Assembly: GCA_028681135.1 (NCBI GenBank)
Contig: JAQUJC010000037.1
Location: forward strand, 1-33,373
Direction: 5' to 3'
Length of the DNA: 33,373 nt
Source of the DNA: Kiritimatiellia bacterium
GTDB taxonomy: Bacteria > Verrucomicrobiota > Kiritimatiellia > CAIQIC01 > Lenti-01
The position numbers were made by a program, and so were the translations under genes. The notes beneath the pieces were generated by a model, which was not told the DNA's origin, made no database searches, and saw only the letters and a list, made by a program, of their open reading frames with translations. Position 1 is the stretch's first letter; every line of letters begins with the position of its first letter. Positions 400 to 13,769 of this stretch are shown here, one piece after another.

Positions 400-2574
400 C
401 TACAGCGTCTGAGCGATTTTTTCGATCTCGTAGGACTCGATGGTGTCGCCCTCAGCAATGTGGGTGAAGTGATCAAGAACAATGCCGCATTCCTGGCCTT
501 CGCGTACTTCGCTGGCTTCGTTCTGGAAGCGCCGGAGCGAGGCAATCTTGCCTTCGTAGATGATGTCGTCCCCGCGCTTGACGCGGGCGCGGCCCTTGAG
601 CGTGATTTTGCCTTTCTCGCACATGCACCCGGCCACCTTGCCGCGCTTGCCCATGTCGAAAATCTGACGGATAGTCGCCGTGCCGTTGATGTGTTCCTTG
701 AGCATGGGGTCGAGCAGGCCCGTCATCAGGTTCTTTACGTCGTCGATCATTTCATAAATGATGGAATACAAGCGAATATCAACGCCTTTGCGCTTGGCTT
801 CAGCTCCGGAACCACTGTCCTTGCCCACATGGAAGCCAAGAATGATGGCCGTGGAGGCGGAGGCCAGCAGGACGTCGTTCACGCTCACATTGCCCGCCCC
901 GGTGCCAATGATGTCCAAGTCGACCTTGTCGCTCTGAATGCTTTCAAGAGAGCCTTGGATGGCTTCGAGCGAGCCCAGAACATCCGTTTTGATAATGACG
1001 TTGAGGGTTCGCTTGTCGCTGCCGGTTTTTTCCTGGAGGAGTTCGTCGAGGGTCATGGGGACGCGGGGCTCGGTGGGGCCGGAAAGGCTTTCGAGGCGTT
1101 TGGCGGCCGCGCGGTCTTCGGCCACCTGCCGGGCTTCGCGGTCATTTTTATAGATATGGAATTCGCTGCCGGGTTCGGGGACGCTGGTGAGGCCTAGGAC
1201 CTTGACCGCCGAGGATGGGCCCGCGGTGCGGACCTTGTTGCCGCGGTCGTTGATCATGGCTTTGACCCGGCCCCAGGTGCAGCCCGTGACAATGGCATCA
1301 TTAATCTGCAGCGTCCCATTGGTGACCAAGAGGTTGGCGGTTGGGCCCATGCCCGCTTCCAGGCGCGATTCGATGACATAGCCCGTGGCCTTGCGGCGGG
1401 GATTGGCCTTGAGTTCCAGAATATCTGTCTGCAGCAGGATCATCTCGAGCAGGTGGTCCATGCCTTCGCCCGCGGTGGCGCTGACATTGCAGCAGATCAA
1501 TTCACCGCCCCAGTCTTCAGAGGCCAGGCCCATTTGCTGAAGCTGGCGCTTGACTCGGTCGGTATTGGCGGTGCGCATATCGCACTTGTTGATGGCCACG
1601 ATCATGGCGACATCGGCGGCTTGGGCGTGTTGGATCGCCTCTTTGGTTTGCGGCATAATGCCATCGTCGGCGGCGATGACAATGATAGCGATATCGGTCA
1701 GGTTGGCACCGCGAGCGCGCATCGCGGTGAAGGCTTCGTGGCCGGGCGTGTCCAGAAAGGTGATCTTGCGGCCATCATGCTCCACCTGATAGGCGCCAAT
1801 GTGCTGCGTGATACCGCCATCTTCGGCGGCAGCGACGTGTTCCTTGCGGATATAGTCCAGCAACGATGTTTTGCCGTGGTCCACATGCCCCATGAACGTG
1901 ACCACGGGCGGACGCGGCAGTAAATCATCTGCGGCATCCGGACCCGTCGCTTCCGGCTTGGGTTCGGGTTTAGGCGGCGGCGGGGGGGGGGGGGCTTTCT
2001 TCTCGTGCGCAAGGGCCACCCCGAATTTTTCGGCCACCTTTTGGGCCGTCTTGAATTCGATCTTCATGCCGATGGAGGCAAAGATATTCAGGCGCATCAG
2101 CTCGGTGATGAGCACATTGGGTTTTACCTCGAGTAAATCGGCAAAATCTTTGACGACGATATGGCCCTTGATGGCCAGGGTGCGCGGACCTTCCGGCTCG
2201 GCGGGTGTGTCCTCGCTGGGCGCTTCGCCCGCGTCAGCGGGGGCCTCGGCCTCGGCGGGGGCTTCGGCCTCGGCGGCCGCAGGTATTTCTGCCGCGGCGT
2301 CGGCTGCCGGGGCATCCGTTGCCGGGGCATCCGCTTCGGCGGGGGCCTCTGGCGTGGCGGCTTCGGCGGGGGCTTCTGGCGTGGCCGCTTCGGCGTCGAC
2401 CTGCTTGTCGCCGCCGCTGTAGTAGATGCGTTGAATCTCGTCGCGCAGATACTGCTCAAGTTCGGGGGTCAGCTTGGCCTGAGTGCTGCGCGCGGTACAG
2501 CCACGCGCCTGCAGGAGTTGCAGCAACTCCTTGCCGGTGGTCATCAGTTCGTTGGCTAAATCGCAAATCCTCAT
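400..2574 (-). CDS. infB: translation initiation factor IF-2
   Basis: IF-2 is the GTPase that brings initiator tRNA to the 30S subunit and promotes subunit joining. The 724-residue product has an N-terminal IF2_N-like segment (1-50), a low-complexity Ala/Glu/Pro linker (about 60-130), a second IF2_N-like segment (about 133-185), a proline run (about 195-201) and the G domain: G1 GHVDHGKT at 229-236, G3 DTPGH at 275-279, G4 NKCD at 329-332, then the beta-barrel and C-terminal domains. The proline run is coded by a long G/C homopolymer near 1981-1994. The ATG overlaps the nusA stop by four bases (ATGA, 2571-2574), which suggests translational coupling. rbfA follows 17 bases downstream. Confidence 0.98.
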
Positions 2575-3845
2575 TCGTCATCCGCCTTTCCATTTAGGCT
2601 TTCGAAGGCCACTTCAGCGGCGGCGCGTACCGCTTGGGCACTGTCGGCGTCGAATCCCTCCACATCCACTAAATCCGCGGGGTCCGCGGCCAGGATGCCT
2701 TCAAGGGTGATGAATCCGGCGGCCACCAACCGCTCGGCATGGTCGGGCCCAATGCCCTCAATGGCCGCGAGATGGCCCGTGGCCAACGCAATGCGCTCTT
2801 CAAAGGTGATGTCGGCTTCATCTTTCTGGATGTCGATTTTCCACCCCGTCAATTTGGCGGTCAGGCGCGCATTCTGGCCCTTCTTGCCAATGGCCAGCGA
2901 AAGCTGGTCGGTCTCCACAATAACCCGGACGGTATTTTCGAGTTCTTCGACTTCCAGGCGTAGGAGCTTGGCGGGGGCCAGGGAATTCGTGACAAAGGTG
3001 GTGATGTCGGTGTTCCACTTGACAATATCGACCTTTTCGCCGGATAGCTCGCGGACGATATTTTTGACGCGTTGGCCGCGCAGTCCGACGCAGGCGCCGA
3101 CCGGGTCCACCTTGTCGTCGTTGGAGTGTACGGCAATCTTGGTGCGAAACCCCGCCTCGCGGGCAATGCCCTTGATCTCGACGGTGCCGTCAGCAATTTC
3201 AGAGACCTCCAAAATGAAGAGTTTGCGGATAAATTCCGGGTTGGCGCGGGTCAGAATGAGCGGAGACCCCTGGGACATGGCATCGATGTTCAGCAGGAGA
3301 AAGCGGATGCGGTCACCGACCTGGTAATCCTCGCTGGGGACCCGTTCGCTACTGGGCATGACGGCTTCGGCATCCCCCAGGTCAACGATGACATCGTTGC
3401 GGTCAAAGCGGATCACGGTGCCGGTGACAATGTCGCCAACATGGTCTTTGTAGATCGCAAAAACCTTGTCTTTCTCCGCAATGCGCAGCTTCTGAATGAT
3501 GGCCTGCTTGGCGGTCTGGGCGGCAATGCGCCCGAAATTGCGGGGGGTGACCTCGATCTCAATCAGGTCGCCAACCGCATAGTTCTTGTCCGGATACTGG
3601 ACCTGAGCTTCCGTGACCGATATCTCTTCCTGGCGGTTGCGGACGAAGTCAACCACTTCCAGACTGGCAAAAGCACGAATATCCAAGGTTTTCCGGTCCA
3701 GTTCAACCCGCAGGTCCCGCACGCGGCCAATACTCTTGCGGCCCGCAACCTGTAGGGCCGATTCGACCAGTTGCGCCAAAGTTTCGCGGTCTAACTTCCG
3801 TTCCCGCTCCATGTATTCAAATACGGCCAGCAATTCGTTGTTCAT
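2571..3845 (-). CDS. nusA: transcription termination/antitermination factor NusA
   Basis: NusA binds RNA polymerase and nascent RNA and modulates pausing, termination and antitermination. The 424-residue product shows the NusA N-terminal domain (MNNELLAVFEYMERERKLDR...), an S1 domain around residues 130-200 (GDIVTGTVIRFDRNDVIVDL), KH domains around 230-340 with the family signature VGACVGLRGQRVKNI and later AIGKKGQNARLTAKLTGW, and a C-terminal helix-hairpin-helix region (GIGPDHAERLVAAGF). It is shorter than the 495-residue E. coli protein, which has two acidic repeats here missing. The ATG at 3845 has a strong AGGAGG Shine-Dalgarno about 8 bases upstream. It is first in the nusA-infB-rbfA unit; the usual rimP is not upstream. 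Confidence 0.97.
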   Translation of the reverse strand: MNNELLAVFEYMERERKLDRETLAQLVESALQVAGRKSIGRVRDLRVELDRKTLDIRAFASLEVVDFVRNRQEEISVTEAQVQYPDKNYAVGDLIEIEVTPRNFGRIAAQTAKQAIIQKLRIAEKDKVFAIYKDHVGDIVTGTVIRFDRNDVIVDLGDAEAVMPSSERVPSEDYQVGDRIRFLLLNIDAMSQGSPLILTRANPEFIRKLFILEVSEIADGTVEIKGIAREAGFRTKIAVHSNDDKVDPVGACVGLRGQRVKNIVRELSGEKVDIVKWNTDITTFVTNSLAPAKLLRLEVEELENTVRVIVETDQLSLAIGKKGQNARLTAKLTGWKIDIQKDEADITFEERIALATGHLAAIEGIGPDHAERLVAAGFITLEGILAADPADLVDVEGFDADSAQAVRAAAEVAFESLNGKADDE

Positions 3846-6496: not shown

Positions 6497-6542
6497 GACG
6501 GCCACCTTTCTGCCCCAACTGCGAGGGCATCCAGTTAATAGT

Positions 6543-6722
6543 ACTCCGGCACCTCGTCTTCTGGCTTACGGCAAGTCTACTCGTCCATCTTCTCCCGCCC
6601 GTGGGGGCGGAATGATATGCTGGAATTTCGAAACCGTTTACAGCGGCGCGACCGCGCAGGATTCTCACCCGCTTCCGTTAGTCGCCGGATGCGTCGCCAA
6701 CCCTTTTGGCCACGCACCTAAA
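6543..6722 (-). promoter_or_regulatory. cobalamin (B12) riboswitch
   Basis: The minus strand carries the conserved cobalamin riboswitch blocks in order: a core GGAAGCGGGTGAGAATCC, then GCGCGGTCGCGCCGCTGTAA, and a B12 box AGCCAGAAGACGAGGTGCC ending about 50 bases before the start codon of the DUF4465-like gene. Adenosylcobalamin binding would repress that gene and probably the pseudopilin gene behind it. Outer boundaries are approximate. Confidence 0.95.
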
Positions 6723-6764
6723 CCCTAACACCACCCGCAAAATCAACGCAACCCATAAAGCAAG

Positions 6765-6827: not shown

Positions 6828-7706
6828 TACATTGTATTCTCGCAGGAGGGCTGGCCTATGGTGCTGGATGGGGCGATTCCGGCTAGCGAGGGGCGGCTGT
6901 GGATTCTGGGACAAACGATGCCGAAACAGACGGTGTGGGGCTGGGAAATTCCTCGTTATTCACTTTTTCGGGTGGACGCGGATGGCCTTTTGGATTCGTC
7001 TTTCGAGCCGCTGGAATTGCCGGAATACAATTATTACTCCATTGCAGAACGGAGGGGCGGGGGGGGGCGGCTGGTGGGCCTGTATTCGTATGGCGAGTGG
7101 CTCTGGCCAAGCTCAACTCACCGGAGCTATGGAATCGGCCTGTACGATGCGGGTGGGTTGCTCGTGCGGTCGCATGGCGTCAGCCTGCCCCGCGGCGTTC
7201 CCCTGGTGGTGGCCGAAGAGGCGGATGGTGCTTTGCTCTGCAATGAGGTGGTGACGGAACTCGATGCCGGCCTGGCGGAGCAGCAGAAGAACGTGTTGAT
7301 TCGTATTCGTCCCGATGGCGAAGCGGACCCGGCTTTTTGTGTTCCGCTTGGTTCCGATTCGCCCCATGTGCTCCCAGATGGACGCGTGGACCCGACGTTC
7401 CAGACGGCGGAGCTAGCACGAGTGGTGCCCGATGCCCCGAATCGCAGATACGCCCTGGGGGGAGATCTATCCTTGCCTCATTGCGGGTTTGGACCTACGC
7501 TGATTGGCATCATGAAATCATCCAAGCAGCTGGGCGGTTGGGTTGGGCTGGGATTTCTATACATGGCAGGTGAGGCCATGGGGGTGACCAGTTCGAATAC
7601 CAATTATTTTCCTTCGAATGACCGGATGGAAAAAAGGAAAACAGCCCCGGTGCGCAAACGTTTTGAAACAGGTCGGGCTGGCTCGAATGGCGGAGGGATG
7701 AAATGA
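6828..7706 (+). pseudogene. 5'-truncated delta-60-repeat-like gene fragment
   Basis: An open frame with motifs of delta-60 (beta-propeller-like) repeats: VDADGLLDSSFEPLE, IRPDGEADPAFCVPL and LPDGRVDPTF, each of the D-x-DG-x-x-D-x-x-F type. The first ATG is at 6858, but the recognisable sequence begins immediately after the left palindrome and continues upstream of that ATG in frame, so the 5' part seems lost at the palindrome boundary. After about residue 190 the repeats fade into sequence with no family resemblance and the frame ends in ATGAAATGA overlapping the next start. Most likely a relic of a secreted protein; it could still be a short expressed ORF. Confidence 0.5.
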
Positions 7707-10700
7707 AAATTATAAATTATAGGACTGACCCCTGTGCGGGTCTCTTTGTTGCGTTTGTCAGGCCGTGGATCGGTCTTGCGGGAGTGATGTTGGGGATCGC
7801 AACGGGCGCATGGGGCGGGCCGGTGGAAATCGGGCAGGAAGGCACCAATGAGATCCGATTGGATTGGGAGGCGGTGCCAGGACAAACATATTTCATTCAA
7901 TCCGCCCACAGCCTAGAGCCGTCAGTATGGACCAATGAGATTACCAGCGAAGTGACGCCATCCAATGTATTAGGAAGGAGCTTCACGCCTGTCGGGAGTG
8001 GGCGGCGTTTTTTCCGCGTCAGAAAAGAAGACACCAACCCGCCGGAGATCGACTCGATGGTGCCGGCGGAAGGGGCGATTGCAGTACCAACCAATGCATC
8101 GGTCTATATCAGCCTGACGGATGAAACTGGCATCGATACGAATACCATCGTGTTGTCGATTGGGTCCAACACGAACATGACGCTGGCCGATCCGCGGTTG
8201 ACCTGGTCCAACGATTCCACGGTGGTGTTTGCGCCAACGTCAACGCTGGGGGCGGCGGCGGCCGTCATCACCAATGCCCTGACGGTTTCGGATACACTTG
8301 GCCACACGCTGAGCAACCATACATGGACGTTCGAGTTGGCGCGGCCGGCCTCGGTGACCAGCTCGTTTCTCTCGCTGACCGCGCCGAGCAACGCGCCGCT
8401 GACCAAAAGCGGGCGCCGCCGGACGCTTCCGAATGTGAAGCCGAAGGATGGCGAACCGGCGCTGGAAATCCAAAGCGTGACCAGCAACAGCGTGGTGTTT
8501 TCCTACGAGGGGACGCCGCCGGACATTACCAACGGGACCAAGCTGGTGAGTTTCGATGCGGCGCACCCATTCTATCGTAGTGTCCTGTCGAACACCGTGG
8601 ATGGTGTGGCATTCACCGTTACGGCCTGGACGGAGGACATTCCGTTGACGGATATCCTGGAGGCCGGGTCGATCGGATCGGTGGACCTAACCGCGGCGGA
8701 TCCGGGGGCCTCCAGCAAGGTGGTGGTGAACCTGAATCTGCTGCATGCGGAATTCGGAGAGGATTTGTCGGAAACCGTGTTGCTGGACGACTCCGGGCTG
8801 AAGCTCTGGCTGCCGGAATGTGACTGGTCTTTCGTGGCCGATGTGGATGTGGCGGCGGATATCGGGTGGGGAGAATTGAGATCGTTTGATGCTTCTGCCG
8901 CCGGTGTGCTGACGATTCACGTCAAACCGGAAGCTTTGTTCCATGGGGCCGTGAGCGGCGATGATGAAATCCCGCTGGTGCAGCCCGTGACCAAAGTGTT
9001 CGGCGGGATGGCGGGGCCGGTGCCGGTCTGGGTGGAAGTGATTCTGGAACTGAACGCGGGCTATGAATACAGCGCCACGGTGGATGGCAATGCCCACACC
9101 GTGGTGGACATGGAGAAAGAGCTCACTTTCTACGTTAAACTTCGTGAGAACGAATGGACCTCCGGCGTGGACAATCCACCCATTGTCCTGGAAGCCGAAC
9201 CCATTACGTGGCAAATCGAAGGCGATGCGTATGCCAAGGTCTATATCCAGCCCAAGCTGACCATTCTGGCGTTCAGCCTGGCCGGACTCTGGGCGGACAT
9301 CAAGCCCTACTCGGAATTCGAGGGCGAATTTCAACTGAATCCGTTGGAATACGATCTGGGGCTGTACTACGGCCTTTCCTCGACCCTCGGGATCGAAAGC
9401 CGCATCTGGTACAGCGGTTGGGGCGAGAAGCCGGAGTGGGAACTGTTCAATCAGCGCTGGCCGCTCTGGAGCGATGTGTATCCCGACCCCAGCGATGCGC
9501 CGGTCTTCTCGCATGCCTTTCCGGACCGGAGTGTGACGGTTGGTCGTTCTCTGACGCTGGAAGGCTGGGCTTCGGGCATTCCCGAGCCGCAGTACCGGTG
9601 GTATTTCGATGGCGGGCGGATTGGCGGAGCCACCGGGCCGGAGTTGGATCTTTCCCCCGCCCAACTGGACCATTCCGGGACTTGGTCCGTGCGCGCCTAT
9701 AACAGCGCCGGGAGCGTGGAAACCTCCTGCACCGTCACCGTCACCAGCGGCGGTTCGGGCACTCCCTCCGGCATGGCCCTGATTCCCGCCGGAAGTTTCA
9801 GCATGGGCGATAACTTCAATGAGGGGGGCTCAAATGAACGACCCGTGCATTCCGTGTATGTCAGCGCGTTCTACATGGATAAATATGAAGTGACGAACGA
9901 CAAGATGGTGGAGGTGATGCAGTGGGCCTACGGGCAAGGCAAGCTGACGGTGACTTCCTCTTCGGTCCGCAATGCGGAAGGCAACAGCCAGGAGCTGCTG
10001 GATCTGGATGATTCCGACTGCCGCATCACGTGGAACGGCAGTCAATTCGGGATGAAGGCACTGAAGGGGTCCGGATATCCCTGCGTGGAGGTCACGTGGT
10101 ACGGGGCGGCGGCGTTCTGCAACTACCGCAGCCAGATGGAAGGGCGGTCCCCGTGCTATGACCTGAGCGACTGGAGCTGCGACTGGAATGCGAATGGCTA
10201 CCGGTTGCCGACGGAAGCCGAGTGGGAAAAGGCCGCCCGGGGCGGATCCAGCGGGAACCGGTTTCCGTGGGGCGATACCATCCAGCACACGCGGGCGAAT
10301 TATCACAGCAGCAGCTCATACAGCTACGACACCAGTTCTACGCGTGGTTATCACCCGGACTACGACAGCGATGGGTATCCGTACACGAGTCCGGTGGGAT
10401 CGTTTGCGGCGAATGGATACGGCCTGTTTGACATGGCCGGAAATGTATGGGAGTGGTGCCATGACTGGTATGACAGCGACTATTACGATACATCGCCGGG
10501 AAGCAACCCAACGGGGCCGACTTCGGGCTCGTACCGCGTGCGGCGCGGCGGCGGTTGCGCCACCTCGCCTACTACTGCCGTTCCGCCTTTCGCTTCTACT
10601 ACTACCCGGACTACGGCGACTCCGACTCCGGGTTCCGGGCTGTCTTGCCCCCAGGTCAGTGAAGTGAGCCCGGCAAGGACAGGCAGTGTCCGGTCGCGCC

Positions 10701-10939
10701 GTGCCCTGCGGAGCAGGGCCGACTGGAAGGAGAGGCCGACCGGACACCGGACCACACGTCACTTGGAGGGCCGGCCTCTCCGCCACGGCGGACAAGCGTG
10801 CCGGCTATGCCCGGAAGAGCGGACGGGGTGGAACCCGTCCCTCCAGAATGCAACGCGGTTCCTGGAGGGCCGGTCTCTGTCCCGGCCGGGTTCGGAAAAG
10901 ATACGGACGGGGTGGAACCCGTCCCTCCAGGGGGCTTGA
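7703..10939 (+). CDS. DGR target (variable) protein: exported Ig-like/FGE-fold protein, frameshifted in VR
   Basis: The diversified protein of the DGR. It has a hydrophobic export signal (about residues 24-44), N-terminal Ig-like/beta-rich regions (to about 590), an Ig I-set-like domain (about 599-683) and a formylglycine-generating-enzyme/C-type-lectin-fold domain from about 690 (GMALIPAGSFSMGD, RLPTEAEWEKAARGG, GLFDMAGNVWEWCHDWYD). The variable repeat begins at residue 941. After RVRRGGG the base after TG at 10557 is missing relative to the template; as written, the frame shifts and runs into repeat DNA to 10939. With that G restored the product is 986 residues, ends GFRAVLPPGQ and stops at 10662, the expected form. 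The first ~10 codons come from a repeat, so a start after 7703 is possible. Likely co-transcribed with the DGR genes downstream. Confidence 0.88.
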   Translation: MKIINYRTDPCAGLFVAFVRPWIGLAGVMLGIATGAWGGPVEIGQEGTNEIRLDWEAVPGQTYFIQSAHSLEPSVWTNEITSEVTPSNVLGRSFTPVGSGRRFFRVRKEDTNPPEIDSMVPAEGAIAVPTNASVYISLTDETGIDTNTIVLSIGSNTNMTLADPRLTWSNDSTVVFAPTSTLGAAAAVITNALTVSDTLGHTLSNHTWTFELARPASVTSSFLSLTAPSNAPLTKSGRRRTLPNVKPKDGEPALEIQSVTSNSVVFSYEGTPPDITNGTKLVSFDAAHPFYRSVLSNTVDGVAFTVTAWTEDIPLTDILEAGSIGSVDLTAADPGASSKVVVNLNLLHAEFGEDLSETVLLDDSGLKLWLPECDWSFVADVDVAADIGWGELRSFDASAAGVLTIHVKPEALFHGAVSGDDEIPLVQPVTKVFGGMAGPVPVWVEVILELNAGYEYSATVDGNAHTVVDMEKELTFYVKLRENEWTSGVDNPPIVLEAEPITWQIEGDAYAKVYIQPKLTILAFSLAGLWADIKPYSEFEGEFQLNPLEYDLGLYYGLSSTLGIESRIWYSGWGEKPEWELFNQRWPLWSDVYPDPSDAPVFSHAFPDRSVTVGRSLTLEGWASGIPEPQYRWYFDGGRIGGATGPELDLSPAQLDHSGTWSVRAYNSAGSVETSCTVTVTSGGSGTPSGMALIPAGSFSMGDNFNEGGSNERPVHSVYVSAFYMDKYEVTNDKMVEVMQWAYGQGKLTVTSSSVRNAEGNSQELLDLDDSDCRITWNGSQFGMKALKGSGYPCVEVTWYGAAAFCNYRSQMEGRSPCYDLSDWSCDWNANGYRLPTEAEWEKAARGGSSGNRFPWGDTIQHTRANYHSSSSYSYDTSSTRGYHPDYDSDGYPYTSPVGSFAANGYGLFDMAGNVWEWCHDWYDSDYYDTSPGSNPTGPTSGSYRVRRGGGCATSPTTAVPPFASTTTRTTATPTPGSGLSCPQVSEVSPARTGSVRSRRALRSRADWKERPTGHRTTRHLEGRPLRHGGQACRLCPEERTGWNPSLQNATRFLEGRSLSRPGSEKIRTGWNPSLQGA
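7706..7732 (+). repeat. GGACTGACCCC-ended repeat at target-gene 5' end
   Basis: AAATTATAAATTATA followed by GGACTGACCCC. It has the same architecture as the AAATTCAAGATTCAA + GGGCTGACCCC elements at 17121 and 28041 and the arm ends of the two palindromes. It supplies the first codons of the DGR target gene, so the original start codon may have been displaced. Confidence 0.6.
10523..10654 (+). other. DGR variable repeat (VR)
   Basis: 132 bases at the 3' end of the target gene, paired with the TR at 13444-13576. TR AAC codons appear here as CGC, CAC, CTC, TAC, TTC, GAC and TCC; AAT as TTT; CAA as CGG; AGC as GGC. The last 27 bases (from GGGTTCCGGG) are identical to the TR and would include the initiation-of-mutagenic-homology region. 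One G is absent after 10557, where TR has TGG and VR has TG, causing a frameshift. Confidence 0.96.
10686..10747 (+). other. nested stem-loop downstream of VR
   Basis: GTGTCCGGTCG (10686-10696) pairs perfectly with CGACCGGACAC (10737-10747), enclosing a second hairpin GCCCTGC (10703-10709) / GCAGGGC (10713-10719) with loop GGA. It begins 31 bases past the VR. DGRs often carry a hairpin or cruciform just after VR that aids target recognition; no T-tract follows, so a terminator is less likely. Confidence 0.6.
10764..10930 (+). repeat. two copies of the GC-rich double-hairpin repeat
   Basis: Copies at 10764-10846 and 10863-10930. Each begins TGGAGGG, contains one hairpin half and then GGACGGGGTGGAACCCGTCC, and closes with CTCCAG, so the GGAGGG and CCCTCC ends pair too. 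They lie between the true target-gene stop and the HRDC gene. Confidence 0.85.
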
Positions 10940-10952
10940 ACAGGATGACTGA

Positions 10953-11486
10953 ATGCAAATGGCGTTTTATTCGATTCCCGCCCGCGGCGACGCGGGTTTG
11001 CAGGAGGACCTGAACCGGTTTCTGCGCTCGCACCGGGTGTTGACGGTGCAACGGGAATTTGTTGCCCAGGGCGACAACTCGTTCTGGGCGCTGGCGGTCG
11101 AGTACCTGGAGGGACCGGCTCCGTCCGGTCCGGGGTCGGCGCGGGCCGGCAAGCCGCGCGTGGATTACAAAGAGGTGCTTTCCCCGGAGGATTTCGCAAT
11201 GTTCGCCCAGCTGCGGGAGTGGCGCAAGGCGGTGGCGGAGCGCGAGGGTGTGCCGGTCTATGCGGTGCTGACGAACGAGCAGTTGGCGGCTGTGGCCACC
11301 CGCCGGCCAGCCTCGGCGGCGGAATTGCGCGAAGTCGAGGGCCTCGGCGAGGCCAAGGCCGCCAAATATGGCGAAGGCGTGTTGGCGGTGGTGAAAGCAT
11401 CCCTTGGAGGGCCGACCTCCGCGTCGGTCATGCCCGGAAGAGCGGACGGCGCGGAGGCCGTCCCTCCAGGGGCCTCTGATGAATGA
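10953..11486 (+). CDS. HRDC-domain DGR accessory protein
   Basis: A 177-residue protein with an N-terminal domain (MAFYSIPA..., LNRFLRSHRVLTVQREFV, SFWALAVEY) and an HRDC domain at about 82-147 (LREWRKAVAEREGVPVYAVL, TNEQLAAVA, EVEGLGEAKAAKYGEGVL). HRDC proteins of this layout are known alternatives to the Avd accessory protein in some DGRs, where they probably bind nucleic acid and assist the RT. Residues about 150-174 (LGGPTSASVMPGRADGAEAV) come from a repeat copy, extending the C-terminus past the HRDC fold. A second ATG is at 10959. The stop overlaps the transposase start (ATGAATGA), implying coupled translation. Confidence 0.85.
   Translation: MQMAFYSIPARGDAGLQEDLNRFLRSHRVLTVQREFVAQGDNSFWALAVEYLEGPAPSGPGSARAGKPRVDYKEVLSPEDFAMFAQLREWRKAVAEREGVPVYAVLTNEQLAAVATRRPASAAELREVEGLGEAKAAKYGEGVLAVVKASLGGPTSASVMPGRADGAEAVPPGASDE
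11107..11131 (+). repeat. possible half copy of the double-hairpin repeat inside HRDC gene
   Basis: TGGAGGGACCGGCTCCGTCC and following bases resemble the left half of the repeat and encode LEGPAPSG between the two domains of the accessory protein. Only one half is present, so the match is tentative. Confidence 0.35.
11405..11469 (+). repeat. double-hairpin repeat forming the HRDC gene 3' end
   Basis: A complete copy: TGGAGGGCCGACCTCCGCG hairpin half, linker ATGCCCGGAAGAGC, then GGACGGCGCGGAGGCCGTCC and CTCCAG. It is read in frame as the C-terminal tail of the accessory protein and ends 9 bases before the transposase start. Confidence 0.9.
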
Positions 11487-12162
11487 ACGTGCGTATTTCG
11501 AGCGCCGCCATCCGGCGCATCATCCGCCCGTCGAACGGTTCAACGAGCCGGTGATCCTACTGGTGACGGTCTGCATCCGGAACCGGCGGCCCGTGCTGGC
11601 TTGCGATGGAGTCCATGAACTCTGCCGCGACGTCTGGCAAGCGGCGGATTTCTGGCGCACGGGCCAGTACGTTCTGATGCCGGATCATATTCATCTGTTC
11701 TGTGCGCCGGGGCGGATTCCCATGCCGAATTTGCGCCAATGGGTGGCGTTCTGGAAAAGCCAGGTCGCCAGGCGATTTTCCATGATGTCTGGAGGGCCGA
11801 TCTCGTCGCCACGGCGGACAAGCGTGACGGCCATACCCGAAACCCCGGTTTCTGGAGGGCCGACCTCCGTGTCGGCCTTGTCCGGAAAAACGGACGGGGT
11901 GGAACCCGTCCCTCCAGGGGGGCCAAACCCGGACGGGGTGGAACCCGTCCCTCCAGAGGGGCCAAACCCGGACGGGGTGGAACCCGTCCCTCCAGGGGGC
12001 AAGCTGTGGCAACGCGATTTCTGGGACACGCAAATGCGTTCCCGGACGCATTACGACGAGAAATGGTCCTATGTGCAGATGAATCCCGTTCGCAAAGGCT
12101 TGGCCCAAACACCCGGCGATTGGCCGTTCCAAGGAGAGGTGTTCCCCCTGGCATGGAGATGA
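11479..12162 (+). CDS. Y1/REP-associated tyrosine transposase (RAYT-like) within the DGR operon
   Basis: A 227-residue HUH single-strand DNA transposase of the IS200/RAYT type. Residues 28-73 give VTVCIRNRRPVLA and VLMPDHIHLFCAP with the HUH metal motif H70-I-H72; the catalytic tyrosine is probably Y198 in SYVQMNPVRKGL, a typical RAYT C-terminal helix. Between these, residues about 104-174 are encoded by repeat DNA (VEPVPPGGPNP units of 13 codons) and have no counterpart in the family. Without the insert it would be about 157 residues, near normal for the family. RAYTs act on REP palindromes, which abound here. Start chosen at 11479 because it overlaps the HRDC stop. Whether the inserted enzyme is active is unknown. 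Confidence 0.85.
   Translation: MNERAYFERRHPAHHPPVERFNEPVILLVTVCIRNRRPVLACDGVHELCRDVWQAADFWRTGQYVLMPDHIHLFCAPGRIPMPNLRQWVAFWKSQVARRFSMMSGGPISSPRRTSVTAIPETPVSGGPTSVSALSGKTDGVEPVPPGGPNPDGVEPVPPEGPNPDGVEPVPPGGKLWQRDFWDTQMRSRTHYDEKWSYVQMNPVRKGLAQTPGDWPFQGEVFPLAWR
11790..11995 (+). repeat. repeat cluster inside the transposase gene
   Basis: A partial copy, a full copy and then two further right halves of the double-hairpin repeat. The right halves start at 11892, 11931 and 11970, an exact 39-base (13-codon) period, so the expansion keeps the reading frame. Confidence 0.92.
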
Positions 12163-12181
12163 CAAACAGATCCGGGGTAAA

Positions 12182-12285
12182 TGGAGAGCCGACCTCCGCG
12201 TCAGCCATGTCGGGAAAAGAGGACGGCACGGAGGCCGTCCCTCCAGGGGGCGGGGAACCGGACGGCGCGGAGGCCGTCCCTCCAG
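12182..12285 (+). repeat. double-hairpin repeat ahead of the RT gene
   Basis: One full copy (left half TGGAGAGCCGACCTCCGCG with a mutated end) plus an extra right half offset by 39 bases, ending 12 bases before the RT start. Its G-rich edge supplies the likely ribosome binding site of the RT gene. Confidence 0.88.
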
Positions 12286-12297
12286 GGGAGGGGGCGG

Positions 12298-13419
12298 ATG
12301 AAACGGGCCGGTAATCTCTACGGGCGCATTGCCCAACCTGAGAATCTGCGGCAGGCCTTCCTCAAGGCGATTCGGGGCAAGCGTGGCAAGGCGGAAGTCA
12401 TCGCCTACACCGCGAATCTCGACCGGAATCTTCGGCGGCTGCACGACCAGCTGTCGGCCGGGCATGTGGATGTGGGCCATTATCACTTCTTCACCATTCA
12501 TGAACCGAAGGAGCGGCTGATCTGCGCGGCATCGTTTCCGGAACGGGTGCTGCACCATGCCATCATGAATGTTTGTGAGCCGGTGTTGGAGCGATATGCC
12601 ATCCAGGATTCCTATGCCTGCCGTACGGGCAAGGGCATGCACGCCGCCGTCCGGCGTGCCCAGAGTTTTGCCCGGGGGTATCCGTGGTATCTCAAGCTGG
12701 ACATCCGCAAATACTTCGACTCCATTCCCCACGCGCCGCTGTTGCGGCTGCTGGAGCGGCGCATCAAGGACAAGGCGGTCTTGCGGTTGGTTGCGGCCAT
12801 CGTGGGGACCCACGATTCCGCGGGCACGGGGGTCGCGGAGGCCGTCCCTCCAGGGGGCGGGGAACCGGACGGCGCGGAGGCTGTCCCTCCAGCGAGCGGA
12901 TCGATGGAGGGCCGACCTCCGTGTCGGCCGATCGTGACAACCGGCCGGGGCCTGCCCATCGGCAATCTGCTCTCCCAGCATCTGGCCAATCTGTATCTGG
13001 GCCACCTGGATCATTGGATCAAGGAAACGCTGCGGGTGCGGGGCTATGTCCGCTATATGGACGACTTTGTCTTGTGGGCGGAGGACAAGAGCATCCTGCA
13101 AGGGTATTGGAGGGCGATCCAGGAATTTCTGGAGGCGGAACTGAAACTGGAACTGAAAAACAATGTCCAGTTGAACCGCAGTGGCAGAGGATTGCCCTTC
13201 CTGGGGTACCGGGTTTTTCCGCATTGTTTGACGCTTGGTCCGCGGGCCCGGAGGCGTTTCGCCCGGCGATTGCGGGGATATGAGCAGGAATACAGGCAGG
13301 GAAATTGGACAGAAGCTGAACTTCAGCGTCACACGGACGCCTTGCTGGCCTACGTCCAGTTTGCCGATACCCTGTCACTGCGGCGGGGCATCATCGCGCG
13401 CATGAAGGGGGTGGCATAG
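12298..13419 (+). CDS. DGR reverse transcriptase
   Basis: A 373-residue RT that would reverse-transcribe TR RNA with errors at adenines. Motifs in order: SYACRTGKGMHAAV (106-118), motif 3 YLKLDIRKYFDSIPH with catalytic D135, motif 4 GRGLPIGNLLSQ (216-227) with the DGR-type SQ in place of the SP of group II and retroviral enzymes, motif 5 YMDD at 253-256, and a later GRGLPFLGYRVFP. Start at 12298 follows GGGGAGGGGG; longer frames upstream only translate repeat DNA. Residues about 178-211 are encoded by an inserted repeat between motifs 3 and 4 (EAVPPGGGEPDGA, MEGRPPCRP), near the palm/fingers and possibly harmful or tolerated as a loop. It lies 135 bases past the transposase and 24 bases before the TR. 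Confidence 0.95.
   Translation: MKRAGNLYGRIAQPENLRQAFLKAIRGKRGKAEVIAYTANLDRNLRRLHDQLSAGHVDVGHYHFFTIHEPKERLICAASFPERVLHHAIMNVCEPVLERYAIQDSYACRTGKGMHAAVRRAQSFARGYPWYLKLDIRKYFDSIPHAPLLRLLERRIKDKAVLRLVAAIVGTHDSAGTGVAEAVPPGGGEPDGAEAVPPASGSMEGRPPCRPIVTTGRGLPIGNLLSQHLANLYLGHLDHWIKETLRVRGYVRYMDDFVLWAEDKSILQGYWRAIQEFLEAELKLELKNNVQLNRSGRGLPFLGYRVFPHCLTLGPRARRRFARRLRGYEQEYRQGNWTEAELQRHTDALLAYVQFADTLSLRRGIIARMKGVA
12831..12930 (+). repeat. double-hairpin repeat inserted in the RT gene
   Basis: Two right halves 39 bases apart followed by a left half (TGGAGGGCCGACCTCCGTG), about 100 bases, read in frame between RT motifs 3 and 4. The order of halves is reversed compared with other copies, as expected if this is a slice of a tandem array. 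Confidence 0.9.
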
Positions 13420-13443
13420 AACGGTATTTTGGGGTTTCGTCCA

Positions 13444-13576
13444 TCGGGCTCGAACCGCGTGCAACGCGGCGGCGGTTGGAACAACAACGCCAACAACTGC
13501 CGTTCCGCCAATCGCAACAACAACAACCCGGACAACAGCAACAACAACAACGGGTTCCGGGCTGTCTTGCCCCCAG
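13444..13576 (+). other. DGR template repeat (TR)
   Basis: 133 bases with 37 adenines, mostly as AAC codons (15 of them), in the register of the target gene. The identical 3' block GGGTTCCGGGCTGTCTTG continues to CCCCCAG. Because variable codons are AAC, AAT, CAA, GAC and AGC, no adenine change can create a stop codon. It starts 24 bases after the RT stop and is probably transcribed on the same RNA. Confidence 0.97.
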
Positions 13577-13581
13577 CTCAC

Positions 13582-13603
13582 CGGGCCGTCGGAGTGCGGC
13601 CCG
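13582..13603 (+). other. hairpin directly after TR
   Basis: CGGGCCG (13582-13588), loop TCGGAGTG, CGGCCCG (13597-13603): a perfect 7-bp stem 5 bases past the TR end. It may fold at the 3' side of the template RNA, where DGR RTs need structured flanking RNA to prime cDNA synthesis. The role is inferred. Beyond it, 13604-13769 holds a 12-bp palindrome ACGGGATCCCGT (13613-13624) and no gene. Confidence 0.5.
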
Positions 13604-13769
13604 CTGACCCGGACGGGATCCCGTTCCCGCCCCATGCGGGACAAAAAGGCAACGCTCCGCCGGGGTTGGTAGCCGGATCGGATGGTCCGGCGAAGACTCC
13701 GGCGGGGCTTCTGACCTGATTCAGCCGCGGCACTCGCCTTTGCCAAAGCCGTGGGGGTCTGACAGCCGT

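Follow-up and report, generated by a model that had tools for sequence, protein, structure and literature searches.

How does a diversity-generating retroelement (DGR) find the gene that it rewrites? The question is raised by a cassette on contig JAQUJC010000037.1 of a Kiritimatiellia bacterium (GenBank assembly GCA_028681135.1; positions 1 to 33,373 of the forward strand, the whole 33,373-nucleotide stretch being referred to here as the window), in which a target gene, an HRDC-domain accessory gene, a transposase-like gene, a reverse transcriptase (RT) gene and a template repeat (TR) follow one another on one strand. In the excerpt of PMC12875486, the entry of DGR cDNA into the variable repeat (VR) of the target is unsettled and was termed still mysterious in 2026. 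We read the window cassette as an HRDC-type DGR whose VR has diverged from its TR at adenines alone, but for one missing base, and whose flanks carry short arms through which the template RNA is predicted to dock on the target, and we put the probability of this reading at roughly 0.6. Beyond the original prediction, which had called the cassette from the window's letters, the analysis adds a frame break in the VR, an invasion by a transposase and its repeats, and a flank pairing found across the class, and the last of these is the part most worth pursuing.

The window holds an HRDC-type DGR

Over 135 aligned columns, the window VR differs from the TR by 26 substitutions, all 26 of them at TR adenines (26 of 38 adenines used), and the alignment holds one single-base gap, located inside the VR. 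The adenine-only pattern that had been predicted is upheld, with the counts corrected from 25 substitutions over 132 of 133 bases. A wider alignment contains one extra C-to-G difference at the first base beyond the repeat, which we counted as flank and not as VR. When the TR was searched against its own genome, the window VR was the one further match. We then counted substitutions in related cassettes: 46 RT-relative loci gave 38 with a TR/VR candidate, and 35 were retained after leaving out L023 (VR after TR), L046 (VR near the contig start) and L049 (TR before RT and no HRDC match). A chance origin of the adenine-only pattern is excluded, because across these 35 relatives 664 substitutions lie at TR adenines and 21 elsewhere.

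The RT carries YMDD and GNLLSQ (GxxxSQ) motifs and matches PHROG 1423 at E 3.5e-110. A profile built from 16 RTs including that of the window matches the solved structure 8ub7 at E 3.4e-57, with the next best match at 7e-32, and the structural model of the window RT (mean predicted local distance difference test score 82.3) has DGR ribonucleoprotein RTs as its top five PDB matches (8ub7, E 9.9e-24). The nearest profile and the nearest solved fold are thus both DGR RTs, and a place for this RT within the DGR clade is supported by profile and fold. Matches to it at E 1e-30 or better occur in 5 of the 17 genomes of the window's taxonomic family, its own included, and among 387 genomes sampled from the phylum, 16 have one at E 1e-40.

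The HRDC gene sits between target and RT, and the TR lies 3′ of the RT. HRDC matches are present in 43 of the 46 RT-relative loci, where the usual order is likewise target, HRDC, RT and TR, mostly on one strand. No match to the accessory protein Avd was found among the three VR-to-TR proteins scanned (HRDC, RAYT-like and RT), smaller open reading frames (ORFs) being left unscanned. A DGR class with target, HRDC, RT and TR is already known, HRDC-type DGRs with FGE-fold targets having been reported from Treponema denticola in the excerpt of PMC4891356, and the window cassette is a further member. Because the substitutions are confined to adenines, the RT is of DGR type by profile and fold, the layout is conserved, and two alleles of the target differ at TR-adenine codons (see below), we conclude that the window element is a real DGR. 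The target ORF, the HRDC accessory, the RT with both motifs and the TR 3′ of it were all confirmed. The original prediction had also called the DGR complete, and all the parts are indeed present, but the target frame is broken within the VR and the RT holds an in-frame repeat insert, so that a functional product may not come from this copy.

The sequence after the TR is complementary to the sequence after the VR

When TR and VR ends are lined up, many cassettes prove to have, after the TR, the reverse complement of what follows the VR. The complementarity is carried by two arms. Arm B′ lies at the end of the TR, often reads GCTC... and shares its first base with the last base of the TR; it pairs with arm B, about 5–30 bases after the VR. 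Arm A′ lies about 15–45 bases after the TR, is often followed by CGG, and pairs with arm A, which starts at or near the last base of the shared TR/VR sequence. The arm sequences vary between cassettes yet remain complementary.

In a first pairing test of 36 cassettes, the observed score was 344.5, as compared with 287.5 for the best of 20,000 permutations. The set was then taken to 52 HRDC-type cassettes by adding 16 loci, leaving out same-contig repeats (L093, L124, L125, L128 and L133), a near copy (L080) and L097 (TR before RT), while L079, L082 and L095 yielded no TR/VR. In an anchored two-arm test of the 52, the mean score with the cassette's own partner was 12.52 versus 7.13 with swapped partners, and none of 20,000 permutations reached the former; both arms were found in 45 of the 52, with stems counted from 4 bp. 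Duplex energies in the same set averaged −39.8 for own and −30.1 for swapped pairs (0 of 20,000 permutations as good), and in 9 of 52 cassettes the own pair beat every swap. Duplex energy per locus is too permissive in GC-rich flanks, and the anchored test and one based on position alone were used in its place. For the latter, we aligned TR flanks from 25 loci picked where the GCTC junction could be placed, shifting the VR end by hand to fit the TR junction in nine of them, and omitted L021, which has a gap there. Arm A in the remaining 24 cassettes made 115 of 144 possible Watson–Crick pairs, where none of 20,000 permutations did as well (best 109), and at one site of the arm 11 G–C and 10 T–A pairs exchange for one another.

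A number of cassettes have secondary VRs, of which nine could be scored. For eight of the nine, no more than 3 of the 51 foreign TR flanks equal the score of the cassette's own TR flank; of these eight VRs, five are located downstream of the TR.

Several observations weigh against a guiding role for the arms. The two-arm form is missing from 7 of the 52 cassettes, and stems of 4 bp are counted among the other 45. The own duplex energy is within the top 5% of swaps in just 17 of 52 loci, and by position alone arm A pairs fully in 13 of 24 loci and at 2 or fewer of 6 positions in four. The secondary VR of L037 shows no preference for its own TR (11 of 51 foreign flanks as good), the cassettes of the pairing set are not independent, some being close kin, and the hairpin between the arms exceeds shuffles in stability by a modest margin (−6.7 versus −5.0 over 26). 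In the window itself, the anchored score is equalled by 48 of 500 shuffles, which is weak alone, the duplex energy by 30 of 102 swaps, and the first-test score by 51 of 70 swaps. The signal from the window by itself is weak because its kin share the same arms, and the pairing inference rests on the class.

We do not claim a conserved inter-arm hairpin as a class-wide rule, since its support is modest. Two motifs are also seen repeatedly in the TR 3′ flanks of loci from several phyla, GGATG or GGAGTG in the stretch separating the arms and GA(A/C)CCGG at arm A′ and beyond it; by their sequence they are possibly a protein-binding element. No Rfam family matches the TR flank at gathering score. 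In the literature searched we found no description of flank pairing, coverage being incomplete and priority unsettled.

Flank pairing and a VR self-hairpin go with different accessory classes

To compare the HRDC-type cassettes with those resembling the Bordetella phage BPP-1 DGR, we used 67 BPP-1-like loci, of which 15 were skipped and 52 had a TR/VR, 42 of these being distinct. The 42 distinct cassettes gave no flank-pairing signal, 6450 of 10,000 permutations being as good as the observed arrangement. Ten phage DGRs (L084 and L087 omitted as near copies) likewise gave none, with 8897 and 11,085 of 20,000 permutations as good in the energy and anchored tests, respectively. A self-hairpin after the VR has been described for phage DGRs by Guo et al. 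2011 (PMC3240598, in the part available). We find such a hairpin, of at least 6 bp and just 3′ of the VR, in 35 of 42 BPP-1-like cassettes versus 2 of 52 HRDC-type cassettes, the latter count being at the level of shuffled sequence, 4%. With the window set aside, 51 of 51 loci of the pairing set have HRDC, as against 0 of 52 controls. Flank pairing and the self-hairpin thus each track the accessory class.

A proposed model for target recognition, and other possible uses of the pairing

From these sequence comparisons, RNA-guided target recognition in place of a hairpin is likely. The RT would copy TR RNA into error-filled cDNA, which would likely replace the target gene's tip. Along the sense strand the VR is followed by A and then by B, so the cDNA would pair with the VR while the template RNA could pair with A and B, exactly where cDNA homology ends. 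The ribonucleoprotein would in this manner dock on the sense strand by its TR-flank RNA, with the pairing standing in for the VR self-hairpin. We infer the copying of TR RNA, the pairing of TR-flank RNA to the sense strand and the replacement of the hairpin; docking on the sense strand is favoured because A and B pair where cDNA homology stops. The full proposal for the class, that HRDC-type DGRs are RNA guided by an element after the TR, with two arms able to enclose a hairpin, that pairs with the sense strand after the VR, picks the gene to be rewritten and replaces the DNA hairpin of BPP-1-like systems, is more tentative, and we hold it at slightly less than even odds. For BPP-1, the excerpt of PMC12875486 describes RNA after the TR that folds, recruits RT–Avd and primes cDNA from an internal adenine, with the strand complementary to the cDNA seemingly met single-stranded at a replication fork.

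The same arms could serve otherwise. They might prime reverse transcription, if the strand after the VR, or an mRNA ending at arm B, annealed beside the end of the TR and its 3′ end were extended into the TR. Arm B′ begins at the last TR base in the 25 aligned flanks, and the 3′ end of B therefore points into the TR, as a primer should. Priming nevertheless leaves unexplained why arm A starts at the end of TR/VR identity, a DNA primer there would yield a fold-back product, and in BPP-1 priming starts at an adenine of its own spacer RNA (PMC12875486, same excerpt), and we consider this use improbable. Scarcely better placed, in our estimate, is the idea that the arms form a long-range stem inside a single operon transcript, giving the template RNA its shape without acting at the target DNA. 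Target, HRDC, RT and TR are mostly on the same strand in related loci, so both flanks can share one RNA. Secondary VRs keep the arms, however, five of them downstream of the TR, which speaks more for recognition in trans than for a stem inside the transcript, although duplicated targets could have inherited their flanks by descent.

If docking by the TR flank is correct, about a dozen covarying bases would specify which gene is chosen as target, and the TR flank could serve to predict remote targets. The covarying pairing offers a concrete and cheap test of DGR target recognition, and its presence in one accessory class with no signal in the other gives a criterion, readable from sequence, by which DGRs may fall into two mechanistic classes.

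Features of the cassette

Coordinates are collected in Table 1. Elsewhere in the window, a cobalamin riboswitch aptamer (6531–6736, minus strand; 71.4 bits against a gathering score of 31.5) is the sole Rfam match.

Table 1. Positions of cassette features in the window
Feature	Position	Strand	Evidence or remark
Target gene ORF (Big_5, I-set and FGE-sulfatase domains)	7703–10939	+	domain profile search (FGE-sulfatase E 6.4e-53)
VR	10521–10654	+	TR/VR alignment
VR-flank arm A, GGTCAG	10654–10659	+	complement of 13604–13609
VR-flank arm B, GTGAGC	10664–10669	+	complement of 13576–13581
REP-like palindromic repeat cluster, inside and between genes	10764–12929	not assigned	
HRDC-domain accessory protein, repeat-coded C-terminus	10953–11486	+	E 1.9e-21
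Likely RAYT (REP-associated tyrosine transposase; REP, repetitive extragenic palindromic), split in frame by repeats	11479–12162	+	NF047646, 74.2 bits
DGR RT ORF	12181–13419	+	RVT_1 E 7.7e-18
RT in-frame repeat-coded insert, about 39 residues, edges approximate	12820–12936	+	modelled disordered
TR	13442–13576	+	TR/VR alignment
TR-flank arm B′, GCTCAC	13576–13581	+	pairing test
Predicted hairpin separating the TR-flank arms	13582–13603	+	−15.2 kcal/mol; 1.5% of shuffles equally stable
TR-flank arm A′, CTGACC, then CGG	13604–13609	+	pairing test

The target gene and a natural allele of it

The target ORF encodes 1078 residues, departs from the family frame at the VR gap and then runs through repeats to 10939, such that its last ~125 residues are not an FGE tip. 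The family ending, GFRAVLPPGQ, is present in another frame, with its TGA stop at 10660–10662.

An allele with an intact frame through the VR is P0002, a protein of 987 residues from a public source that belongs to a cluster of 52 members and is 99% identical to the target over 88% of the 401 residues searched. When P0002 is compared with the tail of the window target, taking the part beyond the gap in the frame proper to it, 12 of 34 residues are different, every one of them at an adenine-bearing TR codon, whereas residues 111–935 of the target hold 6 differences. On this sequence comparison, two alleles that differ at TR-adenine codons are direct evidence of natural VR hypervariation. Separately, residues 40–110 of the target hold 24 of the 32 differences before the gap, the N-terminal 40 residues and the remainder being nearly identical, a pattern as if this segment had been recombined.

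The model of P0002 has a confident region with an FGE/C-type-lectin fold that matches TvpA (2y3c), the protein P0002 itself matching 2y3c at E 2.8e-18, and by this model such a fold is supported for the target tip. The claim that an FGE-fold target is diversified at its C-terminal tip therefore holds for the frame-intact allele P0002, but in the window the frame shifts inside the VR. That the target protein is exported and binds a ligand is putative.

A likely transposase and its repeats have entered the cassette

Two types of palindromic repeat, TGGAGGGCCGACCTCCGTGTCGGCC and its partner GGACGG...CCGTCCCTCCAG, are scattered through the repeat cluster of Table 1. A 21-base repeat core, allowing up to 3 mismatches, occurs 6 times in the window as compared with 0 expected from shuffles. 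The 3.05-Mb genome holds 20 copies of it, against 0 of a control pattern, and 12 of the 20 are on C60 and C76. Repeats encode the C-terminus of the HRDC protein, the split in the RAYT, 39 N-terminal residues of the RT and about 39 residues before its GxxxSQ motif. The RAYT candidate scores below the curated NF047646 cut-off of 80 bits, its match being interrupted by the in-frame repeat insert, and from its sequence the gene is likely a RAYT.

The first start of the RT ORF adds the 39 N-terminal residues, and aligned relatives begin at the codon at 12298, some being a few residues longer. The second RT insert lies just before GxxxSQ and is modelled as disordered (residues 218–252) inside an otherwise confident fold. 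In P0123, P0125, P0126, P0127 and P0128 the equivalent loop holds peptides of varying length that resemble it (DG[TA]E-VPP, EGRPPCRP), P0126 being near-identical to the window RT and so not an independent example; most of the 120 RTs listed have 334 residues or nearly so. The RAYT/REP case is thus one of palindromic repeats borne in frame at one RT loop with the predicted fold otherwise intact. Among the near relatives, P0126 (in four public sources) and P0243 are partly near-identical to the window RT with a disrupted frame. P0124 is like the window RT at its N-terminus and from about the loop onward is apparently identical to P0129, and by sequence it looks like a recombinant or a chimeric assembly with a break near the insert site.

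RAYTs occur in 16 of 17 genomes of the window's family. On C76 (L089, from the same genome), a second RAYT at 2382–3262, 73 and 87% identical in two parts, precedes the same repeats and, after them, the 38 residues that remain of the C-terminus of a DGR RT; no TR match was found on C76, and this locus is apparently a dead second cassette. In L098 (G009 C108), of the same family, a RAYT comes right after the TR; the flank arms there are 13 and 10 bp, and the RT match carries one internal TGA. A RAYT therefore adjoins a DGR or DGR remnant in three places in one family: the window, C76 and G009 C108. We rejected the RAYT as a general DGR accessory, as the window RAYT pieces match 0 of the 46 RT-relative loci; a RAYT profile from four own-genome seeds found 2 of 66 loci, L089 and L098, and distant RAYTs may escape it. 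Because RAYTs are common in the family, these may be chance neighbours, and because they are common there and match none of the 46 loci, we read the RAYT and its repeats as a local invasion of the cassette, not as an accessory.

Is the window copy intact and active?

VR gaps are absent from 34 of the 35 relatives, and the remaining one (L016) has a gap of three bases, as do the later HRDC-type loci L127 and L135. The frame-breaking gap is therefore an exception, found in the window alone among 36 cassettes. It could be an assembly or consensus error at a hypervariable site, with the true gene intact, and we give this an even chance: hypervariable sites assemble poorly, and the relatives speak for it, but for a DGR RT the excerpt of PMC12875486 mentions indels attributed to slippage on the template. 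A decaying and inactive cassette would account for the same gap, taking the RAYT/REP invasion, the RT insert and the VR frame break as its marks. The frame break, the RT repeat insert and the frame-disrupted, near-identical RTs P0126 and P0243 suggest that the cassette of this lineage may be in decay, and the second locus on C76 keeps RAYT and repeats with its RT reduced to 38 residues. Against this, the RT keeps an open frame of 412 codons and has a confident fold, its insert falling in a loop modelled as disordered, and the intact-frame allele P0002 belongs to a 52-member cluster with adenine-site variation. We consider decay doubtful and retain the reading of the window as an HRDC-type DGR with flank arms; the activity of this copy is uncertain, because the target frame is broken in the VR and RAYT and repeats have invaded the operon.

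Comparison with known systems

As for the repeats, REPIN/RAYT systems resemble the window in combining a transposase with palindromic repeats close by, and the palindromic elements of Rickettsia resemble it in lying inside reading frames, but unlike either, the window repeats are in frame in DGR genes and repeatedly at one RT loop. The transposon- and MITE-laden (miniature inverted-repeat transposable element) DGR loci of Thiohalocapsa PB-PSB1 also carry mobile repeats inside DGR loci, although the elements are different and the excerpt of PMC10907252 describes no in-frame RT insert. Among DGRs, that of Treponema denticola (TvpA) is like the window in its HRDC accessory and its FGE/C-type-lectin target, and differs in that the TR comes first and the accessory gene lies between TR and RT (PMC4891356, in the excerpt). 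The DGR of BPP-1 (mtd-avd-TR-brt) shares with the window the RT fold (8ub7), adenine-only TR/VR substitution and a VR at the 3′ end of the target. Unlike BPP-1, which has Avd, a TR before the RT and a VR self-hairpin, the window has HRDC and a TR after the RT; likewise for the classes, HRDC-type DGRs have no class-wide self-hairpin, and complementarity of VR and TR flanks gives no signal in BPP-1-like DGRs. Group II introns recognise their targets by base pairing between exon-binding and intron-binding sites (EBS–IBS). There is no splicing here, the arms are 3′ of the template and the pairing is inferred from sequence alone, but, as with EBS–IBS, RNA beside the template would pair with sense-strand bases adjoining the site of insertion.

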